Below, one piece after another: positions 4,628 through 31,075 of a stretch of 32,448 nucleotides of DNA. The notes beneath the pieces are model-generated. The model made no database searches and was not told the DNA's origin. It was given only the letters and a program-made list of their open reading frames with translations. Numbering within the stretch: the stretch's first letter is position 1; every line of letters begins with the position of its first letter. The stretch comes from a virus, in IMG/VR virus record IMGVR_UViG_3300013093_000155, positions 1-32,448 of that record; one strand, given 5' to 3'. A program made the position numbers and the translations under genes.

Positions 4628-4638
4628 GGTTGTTTTCC

Positions 4639-5445: not shown

Positions 5446-5483
5446 AATATTGATAGTATAGCACATTAGGTGCTAGTCGTCAA

Positions 5484-5491
5484 TATTTATG
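5484..5491 (-). promoter_or_regulatory. Late promoter motif CATAAATA
   Basis: It overlaps the stop codon of the holin-like gene and lies 38 bases before the dnaJ ATG. It would start a dnaJ-clpA transcript. Confidence 0.55.
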
Positions 5492-7460: not shown

Positions 7461-7504
7461 TGCAACGATAATGAGCCTAAAAGAAAAAATAGAGCTGAGC
7501 CTAA

Positions 7505-7512
7505 TATTTATC
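7505..7512 (-). promoter_or_regulatory. Late promoter motif GATAAATA
   Basis: It lies in the 153-base divergent gap between phoH and the minus-strand unit, 44 bases before the ATG at 7460. It would open the unit running to clpA. Confidence 0.6.
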
Positions 7513-7559
7513 TAAAAAATCTCTTTTTAAAGTACGCTACTATCACGCAATCAAATGCC

Positions 7560-7567
7560 TTTAAATA
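7560..7567 (+). promoter_or_regulatory. Possible phoH promoter element TTTAAATA
   Basis: This plus-strand octamer differs from the T4 late consensus at one position, and the overlapping TAAATAT could instead act as a -10 element. No clear -35 box precedes it. It is 46 bases upstream of the phoH start and is the best candidate in the gap. Confidence 0.3.
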
Positions 7568-7600
7568 TATCTGAGTTTTATGAGAACTCACTACCTCAAC

Positions 7601-7605
7601 AGGAG
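7601..7605 (+). promoter_or_regulatory. Ribosome binding site deciding a TTG start for phoH
   Basis: AGGAG ends eight bases before TTG at 7614-7616. No in-frame ATG lies near this spacing, so the site supports TTG as the start codon. Confidence 0.7.
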
Positions 7606-7613
7606 AAAGCATT

Positions 7614-8399
7614 TTGAGCAAAAGAAAAACTGGCGCACTGCGTCAACAAGAGCAAGATACTAGATACTCACACAGTAAAAAACAGGACATACAAACATTT
7701 TATACAAAGGAAACAAAAACAATCAATTTCGACCAAGCACGTATTAAGTTAGACAGACGTCCTATTACACTCGTGCCCAAGTCCGTCAATCAAGAAAAAT
7801 ACATCCTAGCACTACTTGATGAGGATACAGATATTGTAGTCGTCGGTGGACCAGCAGGAACAGGTAAAACTTACTTAGCGATGTTAGCTGCTATCAAAGC
7901 ACTCAAAGCAGGTGAAACTGACCGTATTATTCTAACTAGACCAGCAGTTACAGTGGATGATGAACAGCATGGATTTTTACCAGGTGATATCAATCAGAAA
8001 ATGGAACCATGGACTAGACCATTACTTGATGTTTTACGTGAGTATTACACAGCTACAGAAATCGCCCACATGTTAGAAGAACAGATAGTCGAGATAGCGC
8101 CCCTAGCATTTTGTCGAGGTCGAAACTTTAAGAATAGCTGGATAATATTAGATGAAGCGCAAAACGCAACTCCAGGTCAACTCAAAATGATTATGACCAG
8201 AATCGGCGTCAACAGTAAGATTGTAATTACAGGTGACATTGAACAAGCCGATCGCAGAACAGCCGACAACGGGCTATTAGACTTACAAAATAAGTTGAGG
8301 AAGGGGGTGATTCCGGGTCTCAAACAGTGCCACTTTGATTTAAAAGATGTGCAGAGACACAGAATCATTGAACACGTACTGAGGTTGTACGCTAACTAA
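7614..8399 (+). CDS. phoH: PhoH-family P-loop ATPase
   Basis: The 261-residue protein has a charged N-terminal extension (about 1-50), then a single RecA/SF1-like NTPase domain. Walker A is GPAGTGKT (79-86), Walker B is ILDEAQ (178-183), and GDIEQADR (207-214) is the conserved third motif of the family. PhoH proteins are ATPases, some with RNA helicase or ribonuclease activity; in phages they are common auxiliary genes whose role is unsettled. The start is TTG, supported by AGGAG eight bases upstream. It is the only long plus-strand gene in the left half, divergent from the unit at 7460 and ending at a bidirectional terminator shared with the gp44 operon. Isolation on the other strand suggests expression at a different time from the late genes. 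Confidence 0.93.
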   Translation: MSKRKTGALRQQEQDTRYSHSKKQDIQTFYTKETKTINFDQARIKLDRRPITLVPKSVNQEKYILALLDEDTDIVVVGGPAGTGKTYLAMLAAIKALKAGETDRIILTRPAVTVDDEQHGFLPGDINQKMEPWTRPLLDVLREYYTATEIAHMLEEQIVEIAPLAFCRGRNFKNSWIILDEAQNATPGQLKMIMTRIGVNSKIVITGDIEQADRRTADNGLLDLQNKLRKGVIPGLKQCHFDLKDVQRHRIIEHVLRLYAN

Positions 8400-15218: not shown

Positions 15219-15839
15219 TTATCCTTGTAACAACTGTATTGCTTGCTCCGAAAGTCTTTGTCTATCTTCAATACCAATAGTTCCACCATTAATACGTTTT
15301 GTTAATGTAACAAAGTCATCACTATCGCAGTATTGGTTTAAGTTGTTATTGTCCCAAAACCAACCAGCACTACTTACAGCACCTTCAGGTGTTTCCATGT
15401 ATGTTACACAGTCGTCAACACTGATACCTAAATCTTGTGCAAACTTAGTATAGTTAGTACGACCTGTTAATTGAATAAGCCCACGACCACAGAAACGATA
15501 TCCATCACCTGACTCTTCAGGGCCATTACCCATACGATTAGCATAAACACGATTAGCAATCTTTTCAGGTTTTTTTGCATATTCTTGTGCAATACTTGCA
15601 TCCAAAAAATATTTGTGAAATATTTTTTGCAGACCATCTGCTGAGTAGTTTAAGTTCTCTTTCACAAAATTAAAACCACCTGATTCGTGTGCTGTTTGTG
15701 CTACAAACGCTGCTGCACGTTTCATGTTGTCATACATGTTGTAGTATTGAGCTACTTCATGCATAGGTGTTGCATATAGTTGCAACGTCTGTACTTTTGT
15801 TTTTGGACAAAGTTTTTGTAATATCTCTAAAGTAATCAT
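15219..15839 (-). CDS. GH19 (chitinase-type) endolysin
   Basis: The 206-residue protein is a single glycoside hydrolase family 19 domain. AQTAHESGGF (47-56) holds the likely catalytic Glu52, ENLNYSADGL (61-70) a second conserved Glu, and FCGRGLIQLTGRTNY (116-130) the substrate-cleft signature. ETPEGAVSSAGWFW follows. Phage GH19 enzymes cut the glycan backbone of peptidoglycan. There is no signal peptide or membrane anchor, so it needs a holin for release or acts from the virion. It overlaps the preceding large fibre gene by four bases and is followed by a structural gene. Its placement inside the tail-fibre block leaves open a virion-associated lysin. Confidence 0.9.
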   Translation of the reverse strand: MITLEILQKLCPKTKVQTLQLYATPMHEVAQYYNMYDNMKRAAAFVAQTAHESGGFNFVKENLNYSADGLQKIFHKYFLDASIAQEYAKKPEKIANRVYANRMGNGPEESGDGYRFCGRGLIQLTGRTNYTKFAQDLGISVDDCVTYMETPEGAVSSAGWFWDNNNLNQYCDSDDFVTLTKRINGGTIGIEDRQRLSEQAIQLLQG

Positions 15840-18800
15840 TCTTCACCTCTGATTTGTTGTTTAAGTTGTTTAACTTCTTCTCTTAACTCAGCGATAGCCG
15901 CAAAAGCTACTGCACTTAGTTTTTCATAATCAACTGCAAGTGATCCATCTTCACGTTGACGCACAGCAATTGGGAATACTTTTAGTAAGTCTTGGGCGAC
16001 AACACCAAAATCTTGTTTACGTACAAAGTATCCATCTTCACCACCGTGACTAGTAATATAATCATCTGTCCAATCAAATGTTTTACCACCGACGGATGAC
16101 GCAATATCTAATGCATTGTTAATAGGTTTAATATTTTCTTTAAACTTACTATCTGAGCTATAAAATGCAGTTACGTTATTTGCAGCACGAATTTCACCAG
16201 AAACACCTGAAGCACCGGTTCCTACACCCAATGAGTAAAACTGAACGTTGTTACTAGTACCAACTGCTTGTCCAATACTAAAGGTTACTGCCCCAGTAGA
16301 ACTTGACACACTGACACCAGTTCCAGCTACTGCTGATGTAACTGCACTTGACAAATAGTTATACCCAGCAAGAGTAGTTTGTGTTACATAAGTACTTGAT
16401 GCTGCTGATGTAGTCAGATAACCAAGACCAGTAACATATGTAGTCATGTTGTTATAAGTTTGATAGTTAGCATCGTTGGTAAATTTACTTACGTTTGGTA
16501 CAGTACCTGTAATATTACCCCATGCAACAGCATTTGCGGTATCAGCAACAGTTGCATGACTTGCATTAGTTGCATTAGTTGCATTAGTTGCACTAGAAAC
16601 AGTACCGGTAACGTTAGATGCGTTAATATTAGTAATAGTGTAACCATTACCATAGAAATTACCACTTAGATTAGCAGCGGCTAGATTACCAGCAGTAGTG
16701 TTGATTGTAATAGTAGTACCAAAAGAAGCAATATTTGGTAGGCTTGTGATGTTAGCTTGCGTAGAACTAACAACTGAGCTTGCTGTACCAACTGTTCCTA
16801 CAATACTTGTATTAGGAATATTAGTCAATAACGCACCGTTACCACTAAACAAATTAGCAATGATACTTCCTGTTGGAACATTGATTGCATTAGCAGAAAC
16901 ACTATTAGCAGAAACACTATTAGCAAGTAGTCCGCCTGAGTTTGCATATAAGTTACCAGTAACATTAACGTGGATTGAGTTCACGTTGCCTGAATTAGCA
17001 TATAAACTACCAGAAGTAGCATATAAATTACCCGACAAGTTAACGTGAATTGAGTTGACATTACCTGATGTAGCGTTGATGTTACCTGATGTAGCGTTAA
17101 CATTACCATTTGTTGCAGTAATGTTATTATTACTTGAGATATTTGACAAACTATTTAAATAGTTAGCATAAACATATCCTGAGTTAGCATACACATTACC
17201 AGATGCTGTGATTAAGTGGCCTGAATTCGCGGAGATGTTTCCTACACCTGTTGCAGATATATTAGAAGCTGCAATAATATTACCCAAACTATTCAATACG
17301 TTACCAAATACAGTACCTGTATTAGCATACACATTACCTGAAAGTTTAGCAGTATTAGCATTTACCGCCCCTGCATTAGCGTTAATATTTCCTGCTACTG
17401 AGTTAATACTACCGGCATTGGCTTGAATATTACCTGTATTTGAATAGATATGTGTTGCAACATATGCCATGTTACTTAGCATGTTACCTGAATTGGCATA
17501 CAAGTTACCTGTAAGTGTGGTATCGACACTAAACATTGATCCAGTGTTGGCATAAAGATTACCCGTTGCATAAACGTGCAGGGTGCCTAAGTTAGCAACG
17601 TTTGCATTACCTTGAATACTTGCAGTGCCTGTTGTAGTGATATTACCGTTTTGTATAATTGTATTGCTGCTACTTGATCCAAATACAGAGAAGACACCGG
17701 TAGAGTTAACATTCGCTGTGTTAGCGTCAGCTAAACGCAAGAATCCAGTAACACTTACATTTGAACCAGTAAACGAAACATTTCCATTAGCATTAATATT
17801 AGCAGTAGTGATACCTGAATTAGCAGTAATGTTTGGAGCTAATAAACCATATGTAATCCCCAAATTTGCAGCAGACAATAACCCAGTGACATTTGCATTA
17901 CCCGAAGTAATATTTGCACTAACCACCAAAGTATTAGATGAGATTGATGTGTTAACTGTTAATCCGTTAGCAGTAATACCTGCACTAGTAGTCAATGATT
18001 TAGTAGAAATTGCATTGTTTACTGTTAATCCGTTTGCAGTAATACCTGCACTAGTAGTCAATGAGTTTGCACTAACAGATGCATTGACTGTTAGATTATT
18101 TGCAGTAATACCGGCACTAGTTACTAATGAGTTTGCTGAGATACCCGCACTAGTAGTCAATGAGTTTGCTGAGATTGCATTGTTTACTGTTAAGCCACTT
18201 GCAGTGATACCCGCACTAGTAGTCAATGAGTTTGCTGAGATACCGGCACTAGTAGTCAATGAGTTTGCTGAGATTGCATTGTTTACTGTTAAGCCACTTG
18301 CAGTGATACCGGCACTAGTTACTAATGAGTTTGCTGAGATACCCGCACTAGTAGTCAATGAGTTTGCTGAGATTGCAGTATTTACGGTCAACCCGTTAGT
18401 AGTAATTGTACCACTTGCTGTTAATCCGTTTGCGCTTAGTATGTTTGCATTTAGTGTATTTGCATTTAGTGTTGTGTTAACTGTTAATACGTTGGAAGTC
18501 AATGAGTTACTAGTAATTGCATTATTTACAATTAACCCGTTAGCAGTAATACCAGCAGTAGTAGTCAATGAATTTGCACTAACAGATGTATTAACTGTTA
18601 AAATATTTGCAGTGATACCGGCGCTAGTTGTTACTGAACTTGCAGACAATGTGCTGGTTGATATAGAGGTATTAATAGTCAAAATATTAGCAGTAATGGT
18701 AGCATTTGTAATCAATCCACCGTTAATATTAGCTAATCCTGATACAGTTAATGTACCATTTGCAATCATTGATTTACCAGAAACATTTCCACCAATAGTT

Positions 18801-19927
18801 GCATCAGTTGATACTGACAGAATACCCGAAGAAATTATCCCATTACCGGTAATAGTTTGTGTAGCAGAAATAATACCTAAAGAAATAAGGTTGTTACTTT
18901 GTACATTGCCTGAATTTGCATATATTGAACTATTAGAGGTCAATGAACCATTGATATTTGCATTAGCATTCACAGACAATCCATTTGATGCAACTAGATT
19001 AGAACCAGAAACATCACCTACGATAGACAATAATCCACTTGTAGTGTTATATGTTATCCCAGATGCCGCCGCAGTATTGCCGCCGCTGTTAAATAACAAC
19101 TGAGAATCAGAACCGGGAGCTTGTGTATTGCCACCAGGTGGCACAACAACGTTACCAGTAATAGTTCCTGCTGAGATAGTTGCAACACTTAATGCAGAAG
19201 CACTTAAATTTGCTGCTGATAGATTACCAGTAACTTGCATATCACCTGTTGCTAAATTTCCTGCAACAGTAAGATTACCCAATACACCCACACTCGTAAT
19301 GCTTGGTTGACTGCTTGATGTTAATGTACCACCAACATAAGTTGCAGAAACAGAACCAACATCTAAATTACCATTAACAGTAATATTACCTGATGTTACG
19401 ATACCGTTTGCGTCAGTTGAAATTGTTTGAGAACCAACAGTAAGAGTATTACCACTTAAATACAAGTCGCGCCATCTGTGTGCAGGTGTGCCCAAATCAT
19501 AAGTAACGTTAGCATATGGAACCAATGAACCACCTACAAAATTACCAACAACTAGATTTGATACACTAACGTTTCCTGAGAAGTTAGCATTGATTGTTGT
19601 TATTGTATTTGCTAGTCCTATCGTAAAGGGGGTAGCATATGAATAGATTGTTGCAGTATTACTATTTGCGACTCCTAATCCTACTTGTAGACTACTAGTT
19701 GTTTGTATTGTAATGTTTGAGATGTTTGCTGAAATAGTAACATTACCGGTAATCAAGTTACCCTTTGAAGTTAAACCAGATCCTGCAGTGATTGAAGCTA
19801 CGCCGGTGACTAGGTTAGCTGAGTATAATTCAGTAAAGTTGTTTTGTACTTTTTGAAAGGCTGATCTAATGGGATCTGCATTTGGATCGTTTGGAAATGA
19901 GCCTAAATCTATATTTTGCTGACTCAT
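15836..19927 (-). CDS. Giant repeat-rich tail fibre with S74 chaperone domain
   Basis: The 1363-residue protein begins with a short helical attachment-like segment. Some 1100 residues of Asn/Ser/Thr/Ala/Gly-rich beta repeats follow (GNVYANSG, SANSLTTSAGITANGLTVNN and relatives). The C-terminus is a Peptidase S74 intramolecular chaperone (about 1255-1363): SSDSKFKENI, then FGVVAQDL and LAVDYEKL, then a final coiled coil. S74 domains trimerise long fibres and then cut themselves off, probably near S1257-S1258-D1259. The repeats suggest a long thin fibre used in host recognition. The 99-base DNA repeats at 18082-18378 could change its length by recombination. It has a late promoter 71 bases upstream and a small leader ORF at its start. 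Confidence 0.88.
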   Translation of the reverse strand: MSQQNIDLGSFPNDPNADPIRSAFQKVQNNFTELYSANLVTGVASITAGSGLTSKGNLITGNVTISANISNITIQTTSSLQVGLGVANSNTATIYSYATPFTIGLANTITTINANFSGNVSVSNLVVGNFVGGSLVPYANVTYDLGTPAHRWRDLYLSGNTLTVGSQTISTDANGIVTSGNITVNGNLDVGSVSATYVGGTLTSSSQPSITSVGVLGNLTVAGNLATGDMQVTGNLSAANLSASALSVATISAGTITGNVVVPPGGNTQAPGSDSQLLFNSGGNTAAASGITYNTTSGLLSIVGDVSGSNLVASNGLSVNANANINGSLTSNSSIYANSGNVQSNNLISLGIISATQTITGNGIISSGILSVSTDATIGGNVSGKSMIANGTLTVSGLANINGGLITNATITANILTINTSISTSTLSASSVTTSAGITANILTVNTSVSANSLTTTAGITANGLIVNNAITSNSLTSNVLTVNTTLNANTLNANILSANGLTASGTITTNGLTVNTAISANSLTTSAGISANSLVTSAGITASGLTVNNAISANSLTTSAGISANSLTTSAGITASGLTVNNAISANSLTTSAGISANSLVTSAGITANNLTVNASVSANSLTTSAGITANGLTVNNAISTKSLTTSAGITANGLTVNTSISSNTLVVSANITSGNANVTGLLSAANLGITYGLLAPNITANSGITTANINANGNVSFTGSNVSVTGFLRLADANTANVNSTGVFSVFGSSSSNTIIQNGNITTTGTASIQGNANVANLGTLHVYATGNLYANTGSMFSVDTTLTGNLYANSGNMLSNMAYVATHIYSNTGNIQANAGSINSVAGNINANAGAVNANTAKLSGNVYANTGTVFGNVLNSLGNIIAASNISATGVGNISANSGHLITASGNVYANSGYVYANYLNSLSNISSNNNITATNGNVNATSGNINATSGNVNSIHVNLSGNLYATSGSLYANSGNVNSIHVNVTGNLYANSGGLLANSVSANSVSANAINVPTGSIIANLFSGNGALLTNIPNTSIVGTVGTASSVVSSTQANITSLPNIASFGTTITINTTAGNLAAANLSGNFYGNGYTITNINASNVTGTVSSATNATNATNASHATVADTANAVAWGNITGTVPNVSKFTNDANYQTYNNMTTYVTGLGYLTTSAASSTYVTQTTLAGYNYLSSAVTSAVAGTGVSVSSSTGAVTFSIGQAVGTSNNVQFYSLGVGTGASGVSGEIRAANNVTAFYSSDSKFKENIKPINNALDIASSVGGKTFDWTDDYITSHGGEDGYFVRKQDFGVVAQDLLKVFPIAVRQREDGSLAVDYEKLSAVAFAAIAELREEVKQLKQQIRGEE
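18082..18378 (-). repeat. Three 99-base tandem repeats in the fibre gene
   Basis: Copies at about 18082-18180, 18181-18279 and 18280-18378. The last two differ at only a few positions, the first more. Each encodes 33 residues of the type LTVNN-AISANSLTTSAGISAN. Shorter 30-base subrepeats (GCACTAGTAGTCAATGAG on the plus strand) occur within and around them. Confidence 0.85.
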
Positions 19928-20077: not shown

Positions 20078-22642
20078 TTAGATTCCGCTTAACTTTTTCC
20101 ATTCGTTAATCATTTGCTTAGCCTCTACTACACGAACTGGGTTACCCATGGCCTGAGAACTTTTCATTTTATGTAAGTCATTTCCAATTGACAACAGGGC
20201 TTTTAACTTCATTAGTTCAGTATCAGCAGAAGCATCACCACCGGCATCATTTGCCCATTCAGTAACTTGTTCTTCTTCACCAGGTTCACATTCACACTCC
20301 ATCATACCGCACTCATTGCATGTTTCACCTTCTTCATGGTCATGGTCATGTTCTTCTTCAATGGAGCTAGTGTCTTTGTACTCTTTGTTACCCAACTTAA
20401 ATTCTCCACCTTTTGGAGTGTCTTTCAATTTACCAGTGAAAGCGTTACCTTCATCAGTTTGTTCTTCTTCCTCGTCATCAGATTCTTCACTTGATTCTTG
20501 TTCTTCGTCACCTGATTCTTCGTCATCTGCACTAGCTGGTTCTAATGTACCTGCTTCTGAACTTTCTTCATCTTGGTAATCTTCACCGTCTTCACTATCT
20601 TGAGCTTGTGGGTGTTCTCCACCGATGCCAGACATTTTCTTAATCAAGGCTAACATATCATCACCGTCACCAACGACTTCTGGACTCATTTCTGGTTCTG
20701 TACCTGTACCGTCAGCTTCTTCTTCGCCGCCTTGTGCTACACCATAACCAACTTCTGGTTTTTCGTTACCGCCAAAAACACCCATTCCTGAACTACGCAA
20801 TACTGACAATAGTTGTTCTGCATCTGCGTCTGTTGCATTAATGCTCACACTATCAGGAGCACCTTGTTGACCAGTGCTAGTTGATACCGTGATACCTTCT
20901 TTTAACAAGCTGTTAAGTTGTGACTCCCAGCTTTCCATTTGAATATCTTTCATATCTGTACCTTCTTTAAATAAACTTGGCTTTTTCAAGCTAGAAATAA
21001 AATTGTATGCTCTATCTGTTGCAGCATTAATTGGATCTACACTCCATGGTGTAGATTCTTGTTTATCAGGAACTTGAACCATTTTGCTTGGCTTAATGCC
21101 AAGAGCTTTTTGTGCAAAATCTTCAGTTGCTGCTTCATCTAAACTTGGGTTTGTTTGATAATGCTCATATGAACTAGCAACATCACTCAAAAAATCTTCA
21201 TTGTAGCTTAACATATTGTGTGCTGATTTTGGAGTCATACCAATAGCAACTAGTTCATGGTACACAGCACTTGCAAAGTCATCAGAACTAGTGTTCAAGC
21301 CTGGCTTCTCACGTGCCAATACCTTAGCTACTGTTTCATATGTATACTCTGAATCTTCATAGATGCGGCTTTCAGCTACTTTCTTTTTAGACTTTTTATC
21401 ATTTACGGCTTTCTTGAAACTTTCTTTCTTGTTACCGTCTTTGTCCATGTCTAAGAAGTCTGGTTTAGCTGCTTCATCTACTGCAACTTTTGTTGTGTTT
21501 AAGTGTGCATCAATTCCAGACGTGCTTTTGAGTTTCCATTTAGCTGCTGCCTTTTTAGCCGCATCATAGCTAGTGGGAGCAGTTACTTCACATTTACCTT
21601 TTTTAGCATGTACACATGTGTATGATTTTTCTTCAGCAGATTCTTTCAGTTTACCTTGGACTTTACCTTCTGATACTTCTTCTTTGTTACTAAATTTAGC
21701 ACGAATATTTTGCATTTTCTTTTCACTAGCGTGGTCTTGACCAGCTTTACGTAACGCATCCATACCATCTTTACCGTACTTCTTGTTACCTAAGTATGCT
21801 TGTAATCCTGATTCTTCAACCGCGCCTTCTTCATTGCCAGGACGATTATTCATTTTGATACGATTAGATAAATGTGTCATTATGTCTTTGCGTTGTGTAG
21901 CCTGTGACATTTGATTTGGTGATTGTGCGTCACGCTTTGCGGCTGCTGATTGAATAGTAGCTGGACTTAGTTCTTCTAACTTACCGGCCTTAGCTAACTT
22001 AGCACGAACAGCACCTGCTACACGTGCACCGGCTTCTTTTGAACCATAGCGTTGAGCGGCTGACTTAGCAATCTTAGCAAAGTTTTTGCCTGGTTTGCCT
22101 TCATCTTCACCCTCAGCCATTTGTTCATCCGGATTCAATGTCATTTGACCTTGACCAATAGCACTCTTAATTTGAGTTGCTAGTTGTGGATTTGTAACTG
22201 TACCTAATGTTTTATTACCTTGTGTAATAACTTGTGTATTTTGTTGGGCTGGTTTGATTTGCACTTGGTCAGCTTCGTTGATAGCTTGTTCAACCGCTTC
22301 CATGTATTCTTTTAATGAATGCTTTTTAGAAACTGTTCCAACTGATTTGCTTGGTTTAGCACCCCCGCCAAATATCCCACCTAAAGACTTAGTATCATAT
22401 GATTTTACTTCACCTGAATCGTCAGCGCCCTTCTTAGGACGACCGCGACCTTTTTTAGGTGCATCTTTTTTAGCTTCAGACTCTTTGTCTACTTTACCAA
22501 TTCTAGAGCCGTATTGGTCACGAACATCTTCTTTACCGTGCTTGTTACCATAGTCACCTTTATGGACTTTACCAGTCTTTGTATCTTTTGTTTCAGCTTC
22601 ACTCAATGTGTTGAATGACTGCAATAGGCTTTTGAAATCCAT
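20078..22642 (-). CDS. Large acidic, mostly disordered putative head protein
   Basis: The 854-residue protein is low-complexity and very polar. It begins MDFKSLLQSFNTLSEAETKD, whose LSE/A at 13-16 fits a prohead-protease site. At least a dozen similar [LIV]xE/[ASG] sites follow (for example INEAD, VEESG, VSEGK, LKESA, VDEAA, LDEAA, LKEGI). KKGRGRPKKG (63-72) is an AT-hook-like DNA-binding motif. KPDFLDMDKDGNKKESFKKA recalls a segment common in marine-phage virion proteins. Residues about 640-760 are an Asp/Glu/Ser-rich tract. A HDHDH run and CNECGMMECEC (765-785) form a possible metal site. No enzyme fold is visible. It ends at a strong terminator. A scaffold or internal head protein cut during maturation is the best guess. 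Confidence 0.65.
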   Translation of the reverse strand: MDFKSLLQSFNTLSEAETKDTKTGKVHKGDYGNKHGKEDVRDQYGSRIGKVDKESEAKKDAPKKGRGRPKKGADDSGEVKSYDTKSLGGIFGGGAKPSKSVGTVSKKHSLKEYMEAVEQAINEADQVQIKPAQQNTQVITQGNKTLGTVTNPQLATQIKSAIGQGQMTLNPDEQMAEGEDEGKPGKNFAKIAKSAAQRYGSKEAGARVAGAVRAKLAKAGKLEELSPATIQSAAAKRDAQSPNQMSQATQRKDIMTHLSNRIKMNNRPGNEEGAVEESGLQAYLGNKKYGKDGMDALRKAGQDHASEKKMQNIRAKFSNKEEVSEGKVQGKLKESAEEKSYTCVHAKKGKCEVTAPTSYDAAKKAAAKWKLKSTSGIDAHLNTTKVAVDEAAKPDFLDMDKDGNKKESFKKAVNDKKSKKKVAESRIYEDSEYTYETVAKVLAREKPGLNTSSDDFASAVYHELVAIGMTPKSAHNMLSYNEDFLSDVASSYEHYQTNPSLDEAATEDFAQKALGIKPSKMVQVPDKQESTPWSVDPINAATDRAYNFISSLKKPSLFKEGTDMKDIQMESWESQLNSLLKEGITVSTSTGQQGAPDSVSINATDADAEQLLSVLRSSGMGVFGGNEKPEVGYGVAQGGEEEADGTGTEPEMSPEVVGDGDDMLALIKKMSGIGGEHPQAQDSEDGEDYQDEESSEAGTLEPASADDEESGDEEQESSEESDDEEEEQTDEGNAFTGKLKDTPKGGEFKLGNKEYKDTSSIEEEHDHDHEEGETCNECGMMECECEPGEEEQVTEWANDAGGDASADTELMKLKALLSIGNDLHKMKSSQAMGNPVRVVEAKQMINEWKKLSGI

Positions 22643-22881
22643 TATTTTGATCCTTTTCTATTTTGCGTTTGTTGCAATACTACTAACGCTTGTTCAATTC
22701 TGTCTAATTGTTTACCCATGTCATTCATCTTTGTTTCTGCATTTTCTGCTTTAACTTGAATAACTGTTGTCTTTGTATTTAAGTCATTGATATTAGTATT
22801 CATTGACAGGTAACCTGTACCACCGATGCCACATGCACCGACTACTATCCATGATAATTGACTAGTAGTAAAGTCCACCAC
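22642..22881 (-). CDS. Small membrane-anchored coiled-coil protein
   Basis: The 79-residue protein has one N-terminal hydrophobic segment (LSWIVVGACGIGGTGYLSM, 9-27) followed by a charged coiled coil (about 30-70) and a basic tail. This layout fits an inner-membrane spanin or small holin, but also minor structural proteins of marine phages. No lipobox partner gene overlaps it, so a spanin call is weak. It overlaps both neighbours by one base (TAATG-type junctions), in the head-protein unit. Confidence 0.6.
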   Translation of the reverse strand: MVDFTTSQLSWIVVGACGIGGTGYLSMNTNINDLNTKTTVIQVKAENAETKMNDMGKQLDRIEQALVVLQQTQNRKGSK

Positions 22882-23492
22882 TATCCTGCCTTTTTAGAAC
22901 CAGTAGCTGGTCGTTGAGGGCGAGTAATTTTACTCATTGGGCTAGAAGTATTGATACCTTCTTTACTCTTGTTTGGTTGAGTTGGTGTTTCTTTAGCTGC
23001 ATATGGGATAAAAACACTTGGCTTTTTTGGTACCACACGGTCAAGATACTGATTAGCATATTCTTTACTTGCTTCTTTACCATTGTCTTCTAATGTTTCA
23101 GTATTCAATAGTGCTTTTTTATCTTCTGCATCCATTTGGTTTGCATATTTGTCAGCTTCACTGTTGATGCTATCTTCATAATCAGTAGTTAATACACGAA
23201 CTTTGTTGATGTTGTATCCTAGTTGTTGAGCAACTTGTTGAATCATTGGTTCAGTAGCTGGATACTTAAATTCTGCTTTGATGATTGTGATTGACTCATT
23301 CTCTAAGTCAGGAAAACCGTACGGGCTTTTCTGTATTGGAGTGGTCTTTGGTTCTTCAATTTTGACTGGGTCAAATTTGGTTAGATTGTATTTGAACAAT
23401 TCTATAAAATTCTTATCAACATCTCCGGCGATTTTGATAGTATAGCGATATGTTCTCGCACTTTCCATTAGATAATGACGTAGGCTTTTCAT
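22881..23492 (-). CDS. Putative head protein with capsid-targeting N-terminus
   Basis: The 203-residue protein begins MKSLRHYLMESARTY. The first ten residues resemble the capsid-targeting peptide of T4 internal proteins, with LME/S as the cleavage site. The next ~110 residues look like an alpha-beta domain (YRYTIKIAGDVDKNFIELFK, IIKAEFKYPATEPMIQQVAQ). I recall a related family in T4-like phages annotated only as structural. The C-terminal 80 residues are polar and disordered. AGGAA precedes the ATG, and a late promoter lies 20 bases upstream. It probably enters the prohead with the scaffold. Confidence 0.68.
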   Translation of the reverse strand: MKSLRHYLMESARTYRYTIKIAGDVDKNFIELFKYNLTKFDPVKIEEPKTTPIQKSPYGFPDLENESITIIKAEFKYPATEPMIQQVAQQLGYNINKVRVLTTDYEDSINSEADKYANQMDAEDKKALLNTETLEDNGKEASKEYANQYLDRVVPKKPSVFIPYAAKETPTQPNKSKEGINTSSPMSKITRPQRPATGSKKAG

Positions 23493-23512: not shown

Positions 23513-23520
23513 TATTTATC
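23513..23520 (-). promoter_or_regulatory. Late promoter motif GATAAATA
   Basis: It abuts the gp16 stop codon and lies 20 bases before the ATG at 23492. It heads the unit 23492-20078 that ends at the terminator at 20028-20057. Confidence 0.62.
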
Positions 23521-24007
23521 ACTGTTCCGTTTTTTTGTTTGCCAAGATACTTCGTAGTAGTTCGTTGCGGTCTACTAAGCTACCTTCGCCTAACGGAATG
23601 TTTTGTATTTCTTCTGATTTTGAAGCAACTTTTTGATCTAATACTGCTTTCTTCATCTGTAAGTCTAGCATCTTAAGTTTTTTGTTTATTTTTGCAGTTT
23701 TGGCTGTAATAGCATGACCTAACATACTACTTGCACTATTAAATATTTCACTTGCAAAACGACTGTCAACTTGCATCCCCAAATCCATTAAATCTTTGTA
23801 ACTATCTGTCGCTAATTGAGCAAGTGTGTCCATTTCAGTATCACTAGCTTCCAATCCACGAACTTGCGGCAATGCGTTTTCAATCTTTTCTAATGTTGAA
23901 AGTGCTTCTTGTGAGATATCTTGAAGTTGAGCCTGCTCGATAATATCTTCATTAAGGTTATCGTTTGGTGCTGGTAGTTCAAAAAGTTCACTTAGTTTTT
24001 TGTTCAT
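23519..24007 (-). CDS. gp16: Small terminase subunit (gp16-like)
   Basis: At 162 residues it is almost exactly the length of T4 gp16 (164). It has the same plan: a short N-terminal motif (KLSELFELPAPND, compare the LLDISDLPG of gp16), an acidic linker, and a central helical hairpin (about 64-125, including SRFASEIFNSASSMLGHAIT and a KINKKLKMLDLQMKKA helix). A polar C-terminus follows. Small terminases form rings that recognise phage DNA and regulate the large terminase. The position close to gp18, gp19 and gp4 fits. The match is by plan and pattern, with little identity. AGGAT precedes the ATG and a late motif stands 22 bases upstream. Confidence 0.65.
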   Translation of the reverse strand: MNKKLSELFELPAPNDNLNEDIIEQAQLQDISQEALSTLEKIENALPQVRGLEASDTEMDTLAQLATDSYKDLMDLGMQVDSRFASEIFNSASSMLGHAITAKTAKINKKLKMLDLQMKKAVLDQKVASKSEEIQNIPLGEGSLVDRNELLRSILANKKTEQ

Positions 24008-24011
24008 TCTA

Positions 24012-24719
24012 CTATCCTATAATAGTAGTATTTATTCGGTTTCTATTTTCCAAAATGTAATTTACTCTGTCCCAAGAGATACTTAGTTTTAGTGATATCT
24101 GTCTAACATTCAACCCTAAGTCATGCAATGAAAATACTTTAGGGAATAAGTCTTTGTTCTTTTCTATGTATGTACTAAACATTTGTTGTCTTTTTTCATC
24201 TGACCACTTAGAACCTTTTCTTGCCTTTGCTGATTTTAAACAATTGTTAAGTCTATTTTGTAATGCTTTTTCTGTCCAAACTTTGTTTCTAAGTTTTTCT
24301 TTTGAAGATTCTTTAAGTTTACGACCGATTACAGTTGGTCGTATTTTGTCGGCATGCTCTTGTCTTTTGGTGTTTGTCCAATAATTATCCAATGCCTCTT
24401 TATATAATTTTCTAGATAATGCATACATTCTGCTACTAGGTATATATCTTCCCTCGCCTATATTTTTTGCATTAGAAAGCATATGAAATGCAAAACACAT
24501 TTTATGTTTGTCGTTTCCTATCGTCATTTTAGTAAGAAGCAAATGACAAATAAAGTGTTCTCTAGCAGTTAATCTCACTAGATTATCTTTATCATTTGTT
24601 CCACTCAATGAACTAGGAATTATATGGTGGTTTTCAGTATAGCCTGTAATATTTCTATTCTTGGCTTTATTGATTAGAGAATTATACCAATTGGTATACT
24701 TGTTGTTGATAAATATCAT
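24012..24719 (-). CDS. HNH homing endonuclease inserted between gp4 and gp16
   Basis: The 235-residue protein has an HNH nuclease core. ENHHIIPSSLSG (about 29-40) is followed by NLVRLTAREHFICHLLL, the 'HHIxP...N...LTxxEHxxxHxxL' type of phage free-standing homing endonucleases. The C-terminal half is basic, with NUMOD-like helices (KARKGSKWSDEKRQQM) and a final helix-turn-helix (LGLNVRQISLKLSISWDRVN). Such enzymes cut intron-less or variant alleles and spread by repair. The start at 24719 is preferred because AAGGAG lies ten bases before it, within the six codons that a longer start at 24737 would add. It splits a junction that otherwise joins gp4 and gp16 directly. Confidence 0.85.
   Translation of the reverse strand: MIFINNKYTNWYNSLINKAKNRNITGYTENHHIIPSSLSGTNDKDNLVRLTAREHFICHLLLTKMTIGNDKHKMCFAFHMLSNAKNIGEGRYIPSSRMYALSRKLYKEALDNYWTNTKRQEHADKIRPTVIGRKLKESSKEKLRNKVWTEKALQNRLNNCLKSAKARKGSKWSDEKRQQMFSTYIEKNKDLFPKVFSLHDLGLNVRQISLKLSISWDRVNYILENRNRINTTIIG
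24029..24036 (-). promoter_or_regulatory. Late promoter motif AATAAATA
   Basis: Minus-strand AATAAATACTAC lies within the last codons of the HNH gene, 21 bases before the gp16 ATG. It would allow gp16 expression independent of the inserted gene. Confidence 0.5.
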
Positions 24720-24728
24720 TGCTGATTG

Positions 24729-24734
24729 CTCCTT
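24729..24734 (-). promoter_or_regulatory. Ribosome binding site fixing the HNH start
   Basis: AAGGAG ends nine bases before the ATG at 24719. It would be coding if translation began at the upstream ATG at 24737, so the shorter protein is favoured. Confidence 0.7.
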
Positions 24735-24778
24735 CATAGCATTAGAGTAGTTGGGATTGTCCAGATCCGCGAACTACA

Positions 24779-25237
24779 CTAATATTTATCTTTTTTCTTA
24801 TAATCCGCTTTGCCGCTGTAAAATAAATCGGATTCCGTAATTACACGAAAGGTAAGTCCTGCTTGTTTACACCATGCCATAGCTGCTTGCCATTTAGCAT
24901 GATTTACCGCTACAACTGCACGGTCTCTGGCACTAACAACTTTACTTTCAATAAGACTTTGTTTCTTTGGTTTGATTTCTACCATTTCAGCAATTTGCTT
25001 GCCAAACTTGTTTTGATAGATTACGATAAAGTCAGGTATATAATTGTGCATCTTACCGTCTAATGGACTGCGGTATGGCACCGAAACTGATTCGCTTGCC
25101 CATTGCAATACACTGTCATTTCGGTCACAAAATTGCATAAAGGTAAACTCCCAACCACTACGATATTTAGGCTTATTTTTGCCTATATATTTTTGTGGAT
25201 TAGTAGGCGTAAATTGACCTTGTGCATACTTAGCCAT
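24779..25237 (-). CDS. gp4: Head-completion nuclease-like protein (gp4)
   Basis: The 152-residue protein matches T4 gp4 (gp50/4) in length and motif. It begins MAKYAQGQFTPTNPQKYIGK, then RSGWEFTFMQFCDRN, VPYRSPLDGKMHNYIPDFIV and VEIKPKKQ. The E, PDF and E-x-K residues form a PD-(D/E)xK nuclease pattern like TnsA. In T4 this protein closes the filled head before tail joining. It starts by a TAATG overlap with the preceding small structural gene. The last codons contain the late motif at 24783-24790. The call is strong from the motif set. Confidence 0.87.
   Translation of the reverse strand: MAKYAQGQFTPTNPQKYIGKNKPKYRSGWEFTFMQFCDRNDSVLQWASESVSVPYRSPLDGKMHNYIPDFIVIYQNKFGKQIAEMVEIKPKKQSLIESKVVSARDRAVVAVNHAKWQAAMAWCKQAGLTFRVITESDLFYSGKADYKKKDKY
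24783..24790 (-). promoter_or_regulatory. Late promoter motif GATAAATA
   Basis: It lies inside the last codons of gp4 and 63 bases before the preferred HNH start. It resembles the site in front of gp16 (24029-24036), as if one junction promoter sits on each side of the inserted gene. Confidence 0.5.
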
Positions 25238-25601: not shown

Positions 25602-26762
25602 TTATACCGCAGGTGGAACGTTAATTGTATTTACTCTTGCAGGTGAAGATAGAGGAACACCTCCAAATCCAGGAACATTGTTCTTAATAACAGTTGAATC
25701 TGCTGTTGGGAATTGAAATATGTTGTTTCTGTTTGGTGTATTTTGTAATGCTCCTGCCGCAGCATTTAGCACTTCACCTTTAGCAATGTTTAGAATATTT
25801 TGAGGATTCTTAAATGTTTGTAATGCAGCACCAGATTTTTGAATTGCACCAAAAATATTACCGTCAGATAAATCTTGCATAACTCCACCAACCGCTGATA
25901 CTAAACCACCTTGACCCAAGATAGTAGCATTTGATCCAGGTCTTGCGATTGGACTCAACGTAGTGTCATAGTGTGCGTCTTCACCAAATCCAGGCACACG
26001 TAGATTAGGCGTTTTACCATCAATAGCTCCTTCATAATACTTGACAGTTTCGTAGTTCAATGTCATAGTATTTTCCATAGTTCCATTACCTTCAGCATAG
26101 TTATACGTGTCATGTGAAAAACTTTCAATCATAGGATTGATAATTTGATACATCGCAAAGTTATGTTGGTTGAAACCGTAAATTTTAATAGAGTTAAAGA
26201 ATGGAATTTTACTTCCAGCATTTGATTGAGATTCACCTATATAGCCCCAATCAGCATCACCGGTAATATCTCCGTTATAAAGATTACGTGCATTTAAGTC
26301 AAACTGTTGTTGAGTAGTACTACCATATGATGCAGTAGTAGGTACATTACCTATCTGTGTTGGATCTTTATAGTAATATGAATAGTATGCAAACCATAAC
26401 TTACGAATGTAGTTCGCAGTATCATCATGGAATGAAATACTAATCGGGTCGTACCTAATTTTTGTTTGTACAACTCTTTTACGATTATATTGATTTAGTG
26501 TTGTTAGATCAAATGTATATTTAGGTAGCTGTACAGTTTTTACAGCCAATCCAAAATTACCATCATCTGGCCAATTAAGTAATGAGTTTTTAATAGACTG
26601 ATTTACATCAAAGTAAACATGAAATAAAAACTTGAACTTAGGAGAATAGGCATAGTTATTAGTTCTGAATACTTTACTTGCGTGTTGAAAATCACGCAAG
26701 TATTCATTACCAAAAAATGCCTTACCCGTGTCAGTTAATAAATTTTCAATAAAACCAGACAT
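25602..26762 (-). CDS. Tail-tube-fold baseplate or tail protein (gp54-like)
   Basis: The 386-residue protein follows gp19 and has a tube-like core. FKFLFHVYFDVNQ is followed by LAVKTVQLPKYTFDLTTLNQ, RVVQTKIRYDPISISFHDD and NYIRKLWFAYYSYYYKD, the strands and helix expected for the gp19/gp54 family. A second set follows in the middle (FFNSIKIYGFNQHNF, MENTMTLNYETVKYYEGA). The C-terminal 120 residues are Gly/Ala/Asn-rich and probably flexible. T4 gp54 starts tube polymerisation on the baseplate, and gp48 caps it. Which of these it matches cannot be settled by eye. It begins 15 bases after the gp19 stop. Confidence 0.68.
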   Translation of the reverse strand: MSGFIENLLTDTGKAFFGNEYLRDFQHASKVFRTNNYAYSPKFKFLFHVYFDVNQSIKNSLLNWPDDGNFGLAVKTVQLPKYTFDLTTLNQYNRKRVVQTKIRYDPISISFHDDTANYIRKLWFAYYSYYYKDPTQIGNVPTTASYGSTTQQQFDLNARNLYNGDITGDADWGYIGESQSNAGSKIPFFNSIKIYGFNQHNFAMYQIINPMIESFSHDTYNYAEGNGTMENTMTLNYETVKYYEGAIDGKTPNLRVPGFGEDAHYDTTLSPIARPGSNATILGQGGLVSAVGGVMQDLSDGNIFGAIQKSGAALQTFKNPQNILNIAKGEVLNAAAGALQNTPNRNNIFQFPTADSTVIKNNVPGFGGVPLSSPARVNTINVPPAV

Positions 26763-26777
26763 TAATAACTCGCTTTA

Positions 26778-27407
26778 TTAAGCACCGATACCAGTAACTG
26801 ATGAGCCACCAAAAGCACGACCAACTTGAGTACCAAGACCAGAACCAAGTGGAGATTGAATTGCATTATCAAAACGAATTGACAACTGAATAGTTGCTGC
26901 ATCGCTTGCTTTGTAGTCCATATTGTTATAGTTAGCTGTCTTAATGAAGCAACCATACAATTCCCATGTTTCTAATACGTTTGGTGTCAATGTACCGTTA
27001 CCACCGTCAAGTATTTCATAGTTGATTTGGAACTTGTAGTCTTGACCTGTAGCAGCACTAGCTTGCTCAACAAAGTCCATTTGCTTCTGTAGTTGTTGAC
27101 CAATTAGTTTACTTACATTACCTTGTGCATCGTCACGCAAGTTAATTTGAGTTTCTTGCCAAGCATGTTTACCAGCTAGATATACTTTGCTGTTGTATAC
27201 ATCTAATGTAACTTCGTCAAACTGAACTTGAGGACGTTGTATGTCCATAACTTGCTTAGTCAATTCTGTTGTAGCACCACCGGTACCAAAGTTTAAGAAC
27301 AATGCTCTGAAACGAAATTGCAACTTAGGCATCAATAGACCCTGGTTGTTGCTAGACGCATCTGATGCAACGGTCATATTGAACAGTGATTGTGAGGCTG
27401 TTGCCAT
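26778..27407 (-). CDS. gp19: Tail tube protein (gp19)
   Basis: The 209-residue protein directly follows the sheath, as in T4, and has the tube pattern. KLQFRFRALFLNFGTGG and VMDIQRPQVQFDEVTLDVYN are followed by the helix-forming NVSKLIGQQLQKQMDFVEQA and the strand TWELYGCFIKTANYNNMDY. It is somewhat longer than T4 gp19 (163), with a Gly/Ala-rich C-terminus. Hexameric rings of it form the tube through which DNA passes. AGGAG precedes its ATG, and a late promoter lies 20 bases upstream, so it can be made separately and in excess over the sheath gene. Confidence 0.88.
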   Translation of the reverse strand: MATASQSLFNMTVASDASSNNQGLLMPKLQFRFRALFLNFGTGGATTELTKQVMDIQRPQVQFDEVTLDVYNSKVYLAGKHAWQETQINLRDDAQGNVSKLIGQQLQKQMDFVEQASAATGQDYKFQINYEILDGGNGTLTPNVLETWELYGCFIKTANYNNMDYKASDAATIQLSIRFDNAIQSPLGSGLGTQVGRAFGGSSVTGIGA

Positions 27408-27490: not shown

Positions 27491-30400
27491 TCAACCTGTA
27501 TTCACAATTCTCACTGGAATATAGATGAACTCAGCAGCTTTTACCGGCTCAATCGCAACATCAATCCAAAGTTCATTTGCATCAATTCTTGCTGGTGTAT
27601 TGTTTGTTTCATCACAAACAACGATATAGTCATATAGACCACGCTTGCCAACTAAGTCAACAAACAATGATTGAACAACACCTGCTACTTGACTACGAGT
27701 TAATGCATCGTTTGGTTCAAATACGAACGGACGAGTTGCAGTTTGTAGTTTGTAGCGAATATATGCCACTAAACGACCTACGTTTGTACGATCTAGTGAT
27801 GTGTTTGATTCATAACTAGACTTGTTACCATAATTCAACAAACCAACACCGCTAAAGTATGCTAATGGGTTGATTTGGTTAGTGTACAACGCATCACGAA
27901 CTGTTTGACGGTTCTTGATAGAGATGAACTCCCCTGTTGCAGCATCAATATATCCAATTGCTGTTGCATTAGTGATTGTACCACGGCGTGTACCAGCAGC
28001 AGCCAACCAAGGGTAAGATACAGCATCATTCTGTAAGAATGTACGCAACATCATATGACTTGCTGGAACTACAACACTTGCACCGGTCAAGTCTGTTGTT
28101 AAACCACTTGGATAGAAGATACCCATATATTCGTCACGTGTAACTAAACCATCTTCTCCTGTACCAGCAACTGTCATTGCATTGGTTGCCCAATTTGTGA
28201 TTGCAGTTTCATCGTCAGGTAAACGCATAGGTGTGTCGCCCAAGACGTAAGCTGTGTTGTTACGGTCATTGTTCAATGTAACCATATCTGGTTGTAATTC
28301 AGGATATCCCGGGCAAGCAATCAAGTTGAAGAATGTATCTTCTTCACGAATGCTCATGTTAGTGTTAATAGCAGTTTTCAATGCTTTAACAATCATAACA
28401 CGCTGTGCCTTGCGACCCATATATGCTGATCCGTCATCTTTCAATCCACTTGCTGATACCCAAGTATATGAGTATTGTGGTAGATTTCCGATAGTTGCAG
28501 GAGATCCTGCATCAAATGAACCAGCGCCAGAGAAGTTGCTATTTGTGAAATAGTTAGTAACAAATTTCTTGACATTGTACCCTGAACGGCGTGTGTTAAA
28601 CAACAACATACCCTGTGGATACAATGTAGCATCAGGAGCATCTAGGTCTAGATAATCACTTGTCCATAGACTTGCAATAGATGCATATGGATCACTGATA
28701 GGATTAACACTACCATCTATTCCCCAACGTGCGTCTGCAAACAAAATACCACTATGACTTGTTTGGTCAGTATTATCAATTGATACCCATTGATTTGTTC
28801 CATTGACAGCTTGCCAACGACTAATCATTGGATAATTTTCTAAATCACTAGAATCTAACCATAGATCACCCCAAACTAAACTGTTACCATTTAGTTGTGT
28901 TACGGGAGCTACTGTTGATACGATAATACCTGATGGGTTTGTTTGTCCAGTTGAGCCTGAAACTGCTGGATGTCCGTTGCTGTCAAATGCTACGTTACCA
29001 TAACCCTTCCATACACCGTTCTTATTGACCATGATATCAACTTGACTTGCAGTTGAATAGAACCATGTTGTTCCATCTGCTGGTGCAGTTGCTGGAGCAC
29101 CTAGGCTAGCTGTAAAATACAACTCAGACCAGTTACTCAATCTTGTAGCGTAGTTAGGTTTTGGTGTACCTGAATAGTAAGCAACAGATGTGATGTTATC
29201 ACCGCTAACTGTTTGAACGCTCAATACTAAATCATTTACAGTGTTTACCCCACCTAATTCAGAACCGTTAAATGTCAATAAATCACCAACTTGATAACTA
29301 TGACCACCTGACGCTGTACCTGAAACTAGTGTATATGAATAGTAGCTACCGTTATTTGTAATTACGAATGTTGCAGAAGTTGCACCACCGCTAGTTGAGT
29401 TAGTATGTGTAGGAGCATTGTTTGTATATGATTGTACTTGAGGTACAGAATTTGTTCCAAAAGTATAACCCAATTCATTAATAAAACCATTAGAAATACC
29501 AGTAGAACCAATGTCACTTAAGATGATATCGCCACCCAATGTGTGAGTTAGAATAACTTCACCAGCAGCACCTAATGATGCCGCTGTATTAGGAATATTT
29601 GCAGCTTGCCAAGCAATTACAAAATCTTCAGCACTATAGCTACCTGAACTCTTACCTGTTAATGCAACAGTATAATACTGAGCAAATGTGTTTACACCAG
29701 GTGTTGTTACTACAACATTCAATGATTTGCCTGGAGCTGAGACACTAAAAGCTGTTTGTGTACCAATAGAAACTGTAGGCCCAGTTGCATTTCTTACATA
29801 GTAAAGTAATCCTGCAGGTCCAATTGTAGTATCACCGGTAATTTGAACTACAGTTCCTGCTGGAATTGATTGTCCACCGGTCAAATCTAATCCTGGCAAA
29901 GCAGTGTTCAATGTATCAAATGTATTTACAGCAATGCTAGTAAATGATTCAGATGATGAACTATATTGACTCAATACAGTATCCAATCCTGAACCACTAG
30001 CACTTGTTTTGATCCAAACAGAACCAGTTGGGTGAGGAGTTGCTTGACTAGTTGTCCATAATGGCATACCTGAACTTGGAGCAAATACAGTATCTGCACC
30101 ATAATAGTATTGACCAGAAACAAAACCTAATTGACTTGAAGGTGTATTTGATACATCAGTTAGAGTTATGTGTGCATTAGAACGACCACTTGATAGACTA
30201 ATTACTAATCTGCCTGAACCATCAACACGTGCAGACAAATCACCAATGCTTAAACCATTGATATATCCTGCAACACTAGTAACACTATCACTACCCGAAA
30301 TAGTAATAGTACGAGTTACTTGACCATTTACGTTAATTGTAAATGACCCTGAAGTTAAAGCTGGATTGCTTGCTGAACATGTAAGTGTTGGAATACCTGC

Positions 30401-31075
30401 TTTCCATCCTTGTGACCCTAAAAGTTCCCATGTATTTGTATAAGTCTTATAGAAATAAGTACCTGCATTATATGCCTTACCAGATGTAATTTGATCAGGC
30501 AACACAGCATATGATCCAATAGATCCAACACTTTGCATAGGATAACCTGTATTTGTATCAATATATGCAGTATCAGTGATGACGATAGGAGTTACTGCAT
30601 TAAATGATCCAGTAGTTGCATTGAATTCAAAAATTCCCCATGCGCTAGATGTAGTATTCAACCAGTATGAACCTGCTGCTGGTTGACCAACAGGACGATT
30701 CAATGTACCTACTAATGTTCCTAAATCAACGTCTGCACGTAGAATATAACAACCATTTGTAACACCCATCAATGAGTATGCGGCCAGTAAACCGTATTCA
30801 TTTAACTCATACCCTTGAATAGGAGTACCGTTAGAAGTTTTATAGAAGAATGGGCTACCAAATAATGTAAGAATATCTTTTTGACTTGATACTTGATATA
30901 GTTTGTTAGCGTTAGCTTGTAATGTTCCTGCGGCTACAGCACCAGTAGTGCTTGTCGCATTTGCTTTATTCTGTGCAGTTGCTACAATTAATAGCGGAAC
31001 TGAACTTGAGGCTGCCGGTAAATATTGACTTTGGTCAATAATATTTACTTCTACGCCTGGTGATGATAATGCCAT
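27491..31075 (-). CDS. gp18: Contractile tail sheath protein (gp18), enlarged
   Basis: The 1194-residue protein starts MALSSPGVEVNIIDQSQYLP, the classic T4-like sheath N-terminus. Its last ~415 residues are the sheath core: GILFADARWGIDG, ACPGYPELQ, VYLGDTP-like AYVLGDTPMRLP, YPSGLTTDLTGASVVVPAS, AAAGTRRGTI, and a C-terminus ending IEPVKAAEFIYIPVRIV. Between about residues 120 and 770 lies a long insertion. It has five copies of a fibre-like GxxW-type motif (GSYWLNTT, GTYFYKTY, GSVWIKTS, GTTWFYST, GDLWLDSS, each followed by a Trp or aromatic). T4 gp18 has 659 residues. The insertion probably forms domains on the outer sheath surface. AAAGGAAA precedes the ATG. Confidence 0.92.
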   Translation of the reverse strand: MALSSPGVEVNIIDQSQYLPAASSSVPLLIVATAQNKANATSTTGAVAAGTLQANANKLYQVSSQKDILTLFGSPFFYKTSNGTPIQGYELNEYGLLAAYSLMGVTNGCYILRADVDLGTLVGTLNRPVGQPAAGSYWLNTTSSAWGIFEFNATTGSFNAVTPIVITDTAYIDTNTGYPMQSVGSIGSYAVLPDQITSGKAYNAGTYFYKTYTNTWELLGSQGWKAGIPTLTCSASNPALTSGSFTINVNGQVTRTITISGSDSVTSVAGYINGLSIGDLSARVDGSGRLVISLSSGRSNAHITLTDVSNTPSSQLGFVSGQYYYGADTVFAPSSGMPLWTTSQATPHPTGSVWIKTSASGSGLDTVLSQYSSSSESFTSIAVNTFDTLNTALPGLDLTGGQSIPAGTVVQITGDTTIGPAGLLYYVRNATGPTVSIGTQTAFSVSAPGKSLNVVVTTPGVNTFAQYYTVALTGKSSGSYSAEDFVIAWQAANIPNTAASLGAAGEVILTHTLGGDIILSDIGSTGISNGFINELGYTFGTNSVPQVQSYTNNAPTHTNSTSGGATSATFVITNNGSYYSYTLVSGTASGGHSYQVGDLLTFNGSELGGVNTVNDLVLSVQTVSGDNITSVAYYSGTPKPNYATRLSNWSELYFTASLGAPATAPADGTTWFYSTASQVDIMVNKNGVWKGYGNVAFDSNGHPAVSGSTGQTNPSGIIVSTVAPVTQLNGNSLVWGDLWLDSSDLENYPMISRWQAVNGTNQWVSIDNTDQTSHSGILFADARWGIDGSVNPISDPYASIASLWTSDYLDLDAPDATLYPQGMLLFNTRRSGYNVKKFVTNYFTNSNFSGAGSFDAGSPATIGNLPQYSYTWVSASGLKDDGSAYMGRKAQRVMIVKALKTAINTNMSIREEDTFFNLIACPGYPELQPDMVTLNNDRNNTAYVLGDTPMRLPDDETAITNWATNAMTVAGTGEDGLVTRDEYMGIFYPSGLTTDLTGASVVVPASHMMLRTFLQNDAVSYPWLAAAGTRRGTITNATAIGYIDAATGEFISIKNRQTVRDALYTNQINPLAYFSGVGLLNYGNKSSYESNTSLDRTNVGRLVAYIRYKLQTATRPFVFEPNDALTRSQVAGVVQSLFVDLVGKRGLYDYIVVCDETNNTPARIDANELWIDVAIEPVKAAEFIYIPVRIVNTG

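Follow-up and report, generated by a model that had tools for sequence, protein, structure and literature searches.

Prohead proteases trim the head proteins of phages and destroy their scaffolds. According to the consulted part of a published account of T4 (PMC9026906), the gp21 protease cleaves after L/I-X-E, the core proteins gp22 and gp67 yield several fragments, and the internal proteins IPI–III and Alt shed an N-terminal propeptide, Alt losing a C-terminal one as well. In the AF158101 annotation gp67 is named a "prohead core protein, precursor to internal peptides". For phages SPN3US and phiKZ, the sections consulted of PMC10052503 describe several cuts made after Glu by a gp21-like protease in head and inner-body proteins, as exemplified by the gp53 propeptide.

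The 854-residue protein analyzed in this work, a candidate polyprotein, resembles each of these systems in part. It has an enrichment of [LIVM]xE[ASG] sites comparable to that of gp22, the prohead core scaffold of T4, a C-terminal tail resembling that of the gp22-like scaffolds of related phages, a very acidic tract and a presumed role as a precursor to internal peptides, as gp67 has, a short N-terminal peptide with a predicted gp21 site at its end, as in IPI–III and Alt, and several predicted cuts after Glu, as in SPN3US and phiKZ. However, the related phages keep a separate gp22-like gene beside the protease gene, and the polyprotein differs from gp22 in its recurrent cassettes, in being two to three times as long and in adjoining tail and neck genes. 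The gp67 protein, in turn, has only 80 aa, two [LIVM]xE[ASG] sites and no cassettes, and in IPI–III and Alt only the termini are described as removed, whereas the polyprotein has many internal sites. In SPN3US and phiKZ the motif is A-X-E or S/A-X-E and the pieces cut off are propeptides, with no recurrent cassettes in the consulted parts of PMC10052503 and PMC9026906. In a search of the literature on phage polyproteins and processed internal peptides, whose coverage left subscription journals and preprints mostly aside, such cassettes were not found described in the text accessible. Judging from its sequence, we consider, with a probability of roughly 0.8, that the protein would be a head-core polyprotein of the phage, cut by a gp21-type protease into pieces, some of which are exchangeable cassettes kept by selection.

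The candidate polyprotein gene and its genomic surroundings

The analyzed window is an entire virus record of 32,448 bases. The ORF at 20078–22642, which starts with ATG, is genuine and lies on the minus strand, a point on which the first-pass annotation was silent. That annotation had described the product as a disordered chain with a GRGRPKK motif and a HDHDH...CxxCGMMxCxC cluster, and these descriptions held: GRGRPKK occupies residues 65–71 (22430–22450, minus strand), the Cys/His cluster (HDHDH...CNECGMMECEC) was found exactly where it had been placed, at residues 765–785 (20288–20350, minus strand), and AlphaFold predicted a pLDDT below 50 for 632 of the 854 residues (mean 42.9, from a thin alignment, n = 5).

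AT-hooks consist of a GRP core with basic flanks and bind AT-rich DNA. As a sequence motif GRGRPKK is AT-hook-like, and the Pfam search found no AT-hook match for the polyprotein. Among the four aligned relatives, GRGRPKK is retained in L003 and L013, takes the form GKGRP in L008 and is missing from L007. A cluster like the Cys/His one is aligned in L003, and L007, L008, and L013 have similar ones at other places.

Searches of Pfam, NCBIfam, and PDB with the polyprotein gave no match, nor did tblastn with the whole polyprotein against 50,697 phage records. Its only PHROGs match was the unnamed family phrog_24078 (E 5e-4), via a cassette. The possibility that the polyprotein is the scaffold itself was rejected, since the relatives have a separate gp22-like gene; this gene is matched by phrog_10922, a family outside of which the polyprotein falls, and the polyprotein gene also lies away from the protease and major capsid genes.

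Upstream on the same strand there are genes for head closure (24779–25237; phrog_218, E 9e-46), which provides a head/neck context, tail tube (26778–27407; phrog_4542) and tail sheath (27491–31075; phrog_10581 and PF17482). Together with a tube-like gene, they follow an identical order in the 364-kb record G003 (84802–98604). The tube-like gene (25602–26762; phrog_13438) forms with the adjoining tail tube gene a minus-strand pair, and like pairs were recognized by eye in G003 and G013. Inspection by eye also indicated an HNH-type homing endonuclease-like ORF (24012–24737, minus strand) between the head-closure gene and the ORF at 23519–24007. On the other side of the polyprotein gene, a highly repetitive, fibre-like protein of 1363 aa is encoded at 15836–19927 (minus strand), and the repeats probably also account for the 492-aa ORF opposite to it (17625–19103, plus strand). 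Two further minus-strand loci were noted by eye: a protein, unusual for a phage, that is rich in GFG/FG-like repeats (GFGSSSGFGSATSNSFGA...) and continues with hydrophobic segments that probably span a membrane (5487–6227), and a ClpA/ClpB-like AAA+ ATPase (2354–4627) adjoining a DnaJ-like protein (4639–5466).

Predicted protease sites and their enrichment

The polyprotein contains 10 strict [LIV]xE[ASG] sites, where shuffled sequences have 3.4 on average (p = 0.0012 with whole-protein shuffles and p = 0.0006 with shuffles within 50-residue blocks). This corrects the "dozen or more" sites announced earlier; admitting Met at P3 raises the count to 11, and admitting Met, Phe or Tyr raises it to 13. 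Among control motifs in the same protein, the reversed motif (1), [LIV]E[ASG] (1), [LIV]xxE[ASG] (4), and [LIV]xD[ASG] (1) were not enriched, and [LIV]xQ[ASG] was mildly so (5 vs. 1.5, p = 0.015). Among the Glu residues of the window protein, an aliphatic P3 goes with A/S/G at P1' (odds ratio 4.6, p = 0.005). The same association was found in eight non-redundant full-length relatives, window included (odds ratio 3.7, p = 3e-12), and in 35 other non-redundant proteins (odds ratio 3.85, p = 3e-23). These 43 proteins were drawn from 81 sequences, i.e., the window and one sequence per locus for 80 loci (the best 80 of 252 relatives), after removal of 38 redundant ones; as patterns containing a site served to find some of the loci, the counts are slightly inflated. 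In group B, [LIVM]xK[ASG] was likewise enriched (144 vs. 85).

These figures bear on a different explanation, in which the product is a disordered virion or tail-associated protein whose sites arose by chance from its richness in Glu, Ala, and Lys and spread via module duplication. The composition is indeed biased (96 K, 93 E, and 82 A of 854 residues), the gene adjoins tail and neck genes, and the site counts are non-independent because related proteins have modules in common. However, shuffles that preserve this composition give 3.4 sites, not 10; the association with A/S/G at P1' is confined to the P3 offset, being absent at offsets −1, −3, −4, and −5 and for Asp; and the same measure ranks known T4 substrates first. 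We regard a chance origin of the sites as improbable.

In the T4 control (bases 1–158000 of 168,903, 241 ORFs) gp22 ranked first (10 vs. 2.55 sites), gp21 second and gp23 fifth. In five of five related phage records (181–364 kb) the most site-rich ORF was the gp22-like scaffold, and the cassette polyprotein ranked second in G003 (of 511 ORFs), G004 (445), G013 (202), and G021 (249), and seventh of 412 in G020; in these scans ORFs spanning 20-kb borders were split, and coverage stopped a few kb short of the end in G013, G020, and G021. The G013 cassette protein is no full-length relative of the window protein; it is another polyprotein in which this cassette also occurs. Three further site-rich proteins, each possibly a second head polyprotein, were noticed: one at 3358–5154 of locus L088 (23358–25154 of G003; 11 vs. 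2.9 sites), one at 188672–190183 of G004 (in L248; 7 vs. 1.9), which starts with MKISQIIQE, and one at 196360–197745 of G021 (in L219; 7 vs. 1.4), which starts with MKIKDIYES.

The Peptidase_S77 domain (PF03420) was found in six of 28 other records (three in a set of 18 and three in a set of 11, the latter including the window), namely in all five records longer than 180 kb and in one of 117 kb. It was not found in the 32-kb window record or in the remaining 22 of the 28, all 23 of which are at most 142 kb long and perhaps fragments. In G003 it is grouped with the portal (phrog_213), scaffold (phrog_10922), and major head protein (phrog_138) genes.

Conservation of individual sites was moderate. 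When the Glu residues of the 13 sites were compared with the 80 other Glu residues in four relatives, their retention gave p = 0.18, 0.06, 0.31, and 0.009; the first-pass annotation had proposed site conservation as a check, and the outcome was individual sites turning over and no strong site-by-site conservation. The N-terminal site LSE|A at residue 15 is conserved in four of four aligned relatives. It ends the peptide MDFKSLLQSFNTLSE|A (22598–22642, minus strand), which is capsid-targeting-like, with a helix predicted with low confidence at residues 3–15, and is reminiscent of the capsid targeting sequence of T4 as described in the part of PMC9026906 consulted. Cutting could be limited to this site, and perhaps a C-terminal one, as in the T4 internal proteins, leaving the remainder as one internal or ejected protein. 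The conservation of LSE|A and, in the same part of PMC9026906, the way in which the T4 capsid targeting sequence works are in line with this option; yet the internal sites are enriched and the ends of cassettes coincide with them, and we find it unlikely.

If all of the sites were used, the window protein would give about a dozen products of 8–258 residues. GRGRPKK would be carried by a basic fragment of 100 residues (16–115, net charge +9), and the Cys/His cluster by an acidic one of 258 residues (583–840, net charge −56), because the glutamates nearest to the cluster, TDE|G and VTE|W, misfit the motif; in L003 and L008, motif-fitting sites lie on either side of a like cluster. The earlier proposal of a prohead-protease substrate yielding many small peptides is partly supported, by the site enrichment, the association test and the rankings, but not for the Cys/His cluster, which would remain in a large fragment. 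Overall, we consider it very probable that the protein is a substrate of a prohead protease of the T4 gp21 type, with multiple cleavage sites. The first-pass annotation lacked what we find most informative, namely the sharp-ended recurrent cassettes, the C-terminal tail in common with the scaffold, the capsid-targeting-like start of a neighboring gene product and the detection of a cassette protein in virions of a cultured phage, all of which are described below.

Recurrent cassettes

When viral sequences were scanned with the complete protein, 252 relatives were found, the best 80 of which were kept; these mostly have one short stretch in common, KPDFLDMDKDGNKKE-P/S/T-M/F-KKA..DK. In the window, cassette 1 (VDE|AAKPDFLDMDKDGNKKESFKKAVNDKK) covers residues 391–417 (21392–21472, minus strand). 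It contains a DxDxDGxxxE loop, which by its sequence is a candidate for the EF-hand-like calcium-binding type; Pfam gave no match for the loop. Within the best 80 of the 252 relatives, 86 occurrences represent 58 distinct contexts, over which the cassette 1 core is near-invariant, the eight residues DMDKDGNK being so by construction, because they were a search pattern, and the flanking residues being free of this effect. Glu is present at −8 in 45 of these 58 contexts, a full site with its P1' exactly seven residues before the D of DMDKDGNK is present in 37, and 17 are without an upstream site within 20 residues.

Cassette 2 (GEDEGKPGKNFAKIAKSA...GKLEE; residues 178–224, 21971–22111, minus strand) was scanned with a 55-residue query, which matched 388 stretches, 160 of which were relatives. 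The best 80 of these 160 gave 75 occurrences in 54 distinct contexts, with a conserved block extending from approximately E|G (34/54) to LEE (Glu in 54/54), past which, across the predicted bond, the commonest residue falls to 16/54. Of the 54 contexts, 32 have a full site exactly at the downstream end, and 20 have one at the upstream end. In the window itself the downstream bond, LEE|L, misfits the motif, and the sole fitting site is the upstream MAE|G. The 38 non-redundant proteins with cassette 2 (from the same best 80) hold 324 sites vs. 106 expected, and 248 remain when two cassette sites per protein (76) are subtracted. In the phage records cassette 2 is nearly absent, with two weak matches, both to uncultured phages.

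In silico cutting of the 43 proteins produced 292 fragments of at least 12 residues (median 52). The fragment with cassette 1 of the window was matched by fragments of 41 other proteins, and smaller sets of fragments recur as well, e.g., a Cys/His fragment in five proteins. Across distinct DNA contexts, the pairwise amino acid difference for cassette 2 was 0.125 inside, 0.88 downstream, and 0.85 upstream, with different codons at 0.415 of identical residues. The corresponding values for cassette 1 were 0.077 (lowered by the search pattern), 0.83, and 0.75, with different codons at 0.444 of identical residues. As the peptides are nearly invariant while their codons vary, the cassettes are held by selection, beyond what recent DNA exchange alone would give. 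Conserved cassette cores end at, or a few residues from, predicted scissile bonds, and the cassettes turn up again in polyproteins that are dissimilar in other respects. The modular organization of the gene, with near-invariant peptides that can be reshuffled because each brings its own cut site, appears to have been shaped by the protease.

Probable head localization and possible fate of the peptides

The polyprotein ends with the tail ...INEWKKLSGI (20081–20122, minus strand), and in related phages the gp22-like scaffold has a similar tail. In each of G003, G004, and G021, exactly two ORFs have [KR]xL[AST]G[ILMV] near the stop codon, the scaffold and the polyprotein; in G013 the tail is found on the scaffold and on a neighbor of the cassette protein, and in G020 one ORF besides the scaffold has it. 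Polyprotein and scaffold thus often have a C-terminal tail in common. In the reading that we prefer, the N-terminal helix and this tail would bring the polyprotein into the prohead core with the gp22-like scaffold. During maturation a gp21-type protease would cut between [LIVM]xE and a following A, S or G and so free individual peptides (the dozen or so pieces predicted above), some of which would be the exchangeable cassettes, near-invariant under selection across a wide set of related phages.

The same events could serve an accessory scaffold only, which fills the core as T4 gp22, gp67, and gp68 do and is chopped to make room for DNA, the fragments leaving without further function. The C-terminal tail common to polyprotein and scaffold in the scanned relatives, the predicted disorder of most of the chain and the fate of T4 core proteins, which are cut into several fragments, most of them lost from the head (PMC9026906, in the part consulted), all agree with it. 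Nevertheless, near-invariance of cassettes in dissimilar proteins, while codons vary, is unlikely for mere debris. A protein with a cassette is also present in mature virions: ORF111 of cyanophage S-CREM2 (67610–68431) contains the cassette sequence KE|AAKPDFLDMDGDGNKEEPMKKALKEK and is one of 52 proteins that mass spectrometry detected in virions after purification (eight unique peptides, 19.1% coverage; PMC10665884, Table 3, in the part consulted). Since seven peptides of the S-CREM2 scaffold were detected in purified virions too (PMC10665884, same part), this detection alone is no proof of peptide retention. We see a purely scaffolding role as possible, though doubtful. By site content, ORF111 ranks 12th of the 230 S-CREM2 ORFs (4 vs. 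1.66, p = 0.09). SSCSM1_92, the cassette protein of phage S-SCSM1, bears the annotation "virion protein", and the consulted part of PMC9602691 reports 45 virion proteins identified by mass spectrometry. Predicted peptide starts after [LIVM]xE in ORF111 or SSCSM1_92 include, e.g., AAKPDFLDMDGDG....

The near-invariance of the cassettes suggests that the freed pieces would have their own function, either within the capsid or in the infected cell, beyond that of expelled scaffold debris. A bolder and rather speculative extension is that T4-like giant phages draw on a common library of protease-bounded cassettes, the peptides of which would stay with the DNA and enter the host along with it, as a mixture of small effectors or DNA-condensing agents; some of them may be basic, and others may hold metal through acidic DxDxDG loops or Cys/His clusters. 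The role of internal head peptides becomes testable in this way, as the peptides can be listed from sequence in any phage with cassettes, and a role would be suggested for proteins without a named family in the libraries searched.

Capsid-targeting-like N-termini were found on other proteins as well. The neighboring gene at 22881–23492 (minus strand) encodes, by sequence, such an N-terminus (MKSLRHYLME|S), and its equivalents in G003 and G013 start with MRSLKQYIME|S and MKNFKEYITE|S, respectively. In S-CREM2, for which ORFs could be assigned to 50 of the 52 virion proteins, N-termini of this kind were not significantly commoner among virion proteins (6/16, p = 0.11). The cytidylyltransferase of the S-CREM2 virion starts with MKNFSSFLTE|A, and an NMNAT annotated as a virion protein of S-SCSM1 (6717–7946 of locus L082) starts with MKSFLQFLKE|A, resembling the T4 capsid targeting sequence.
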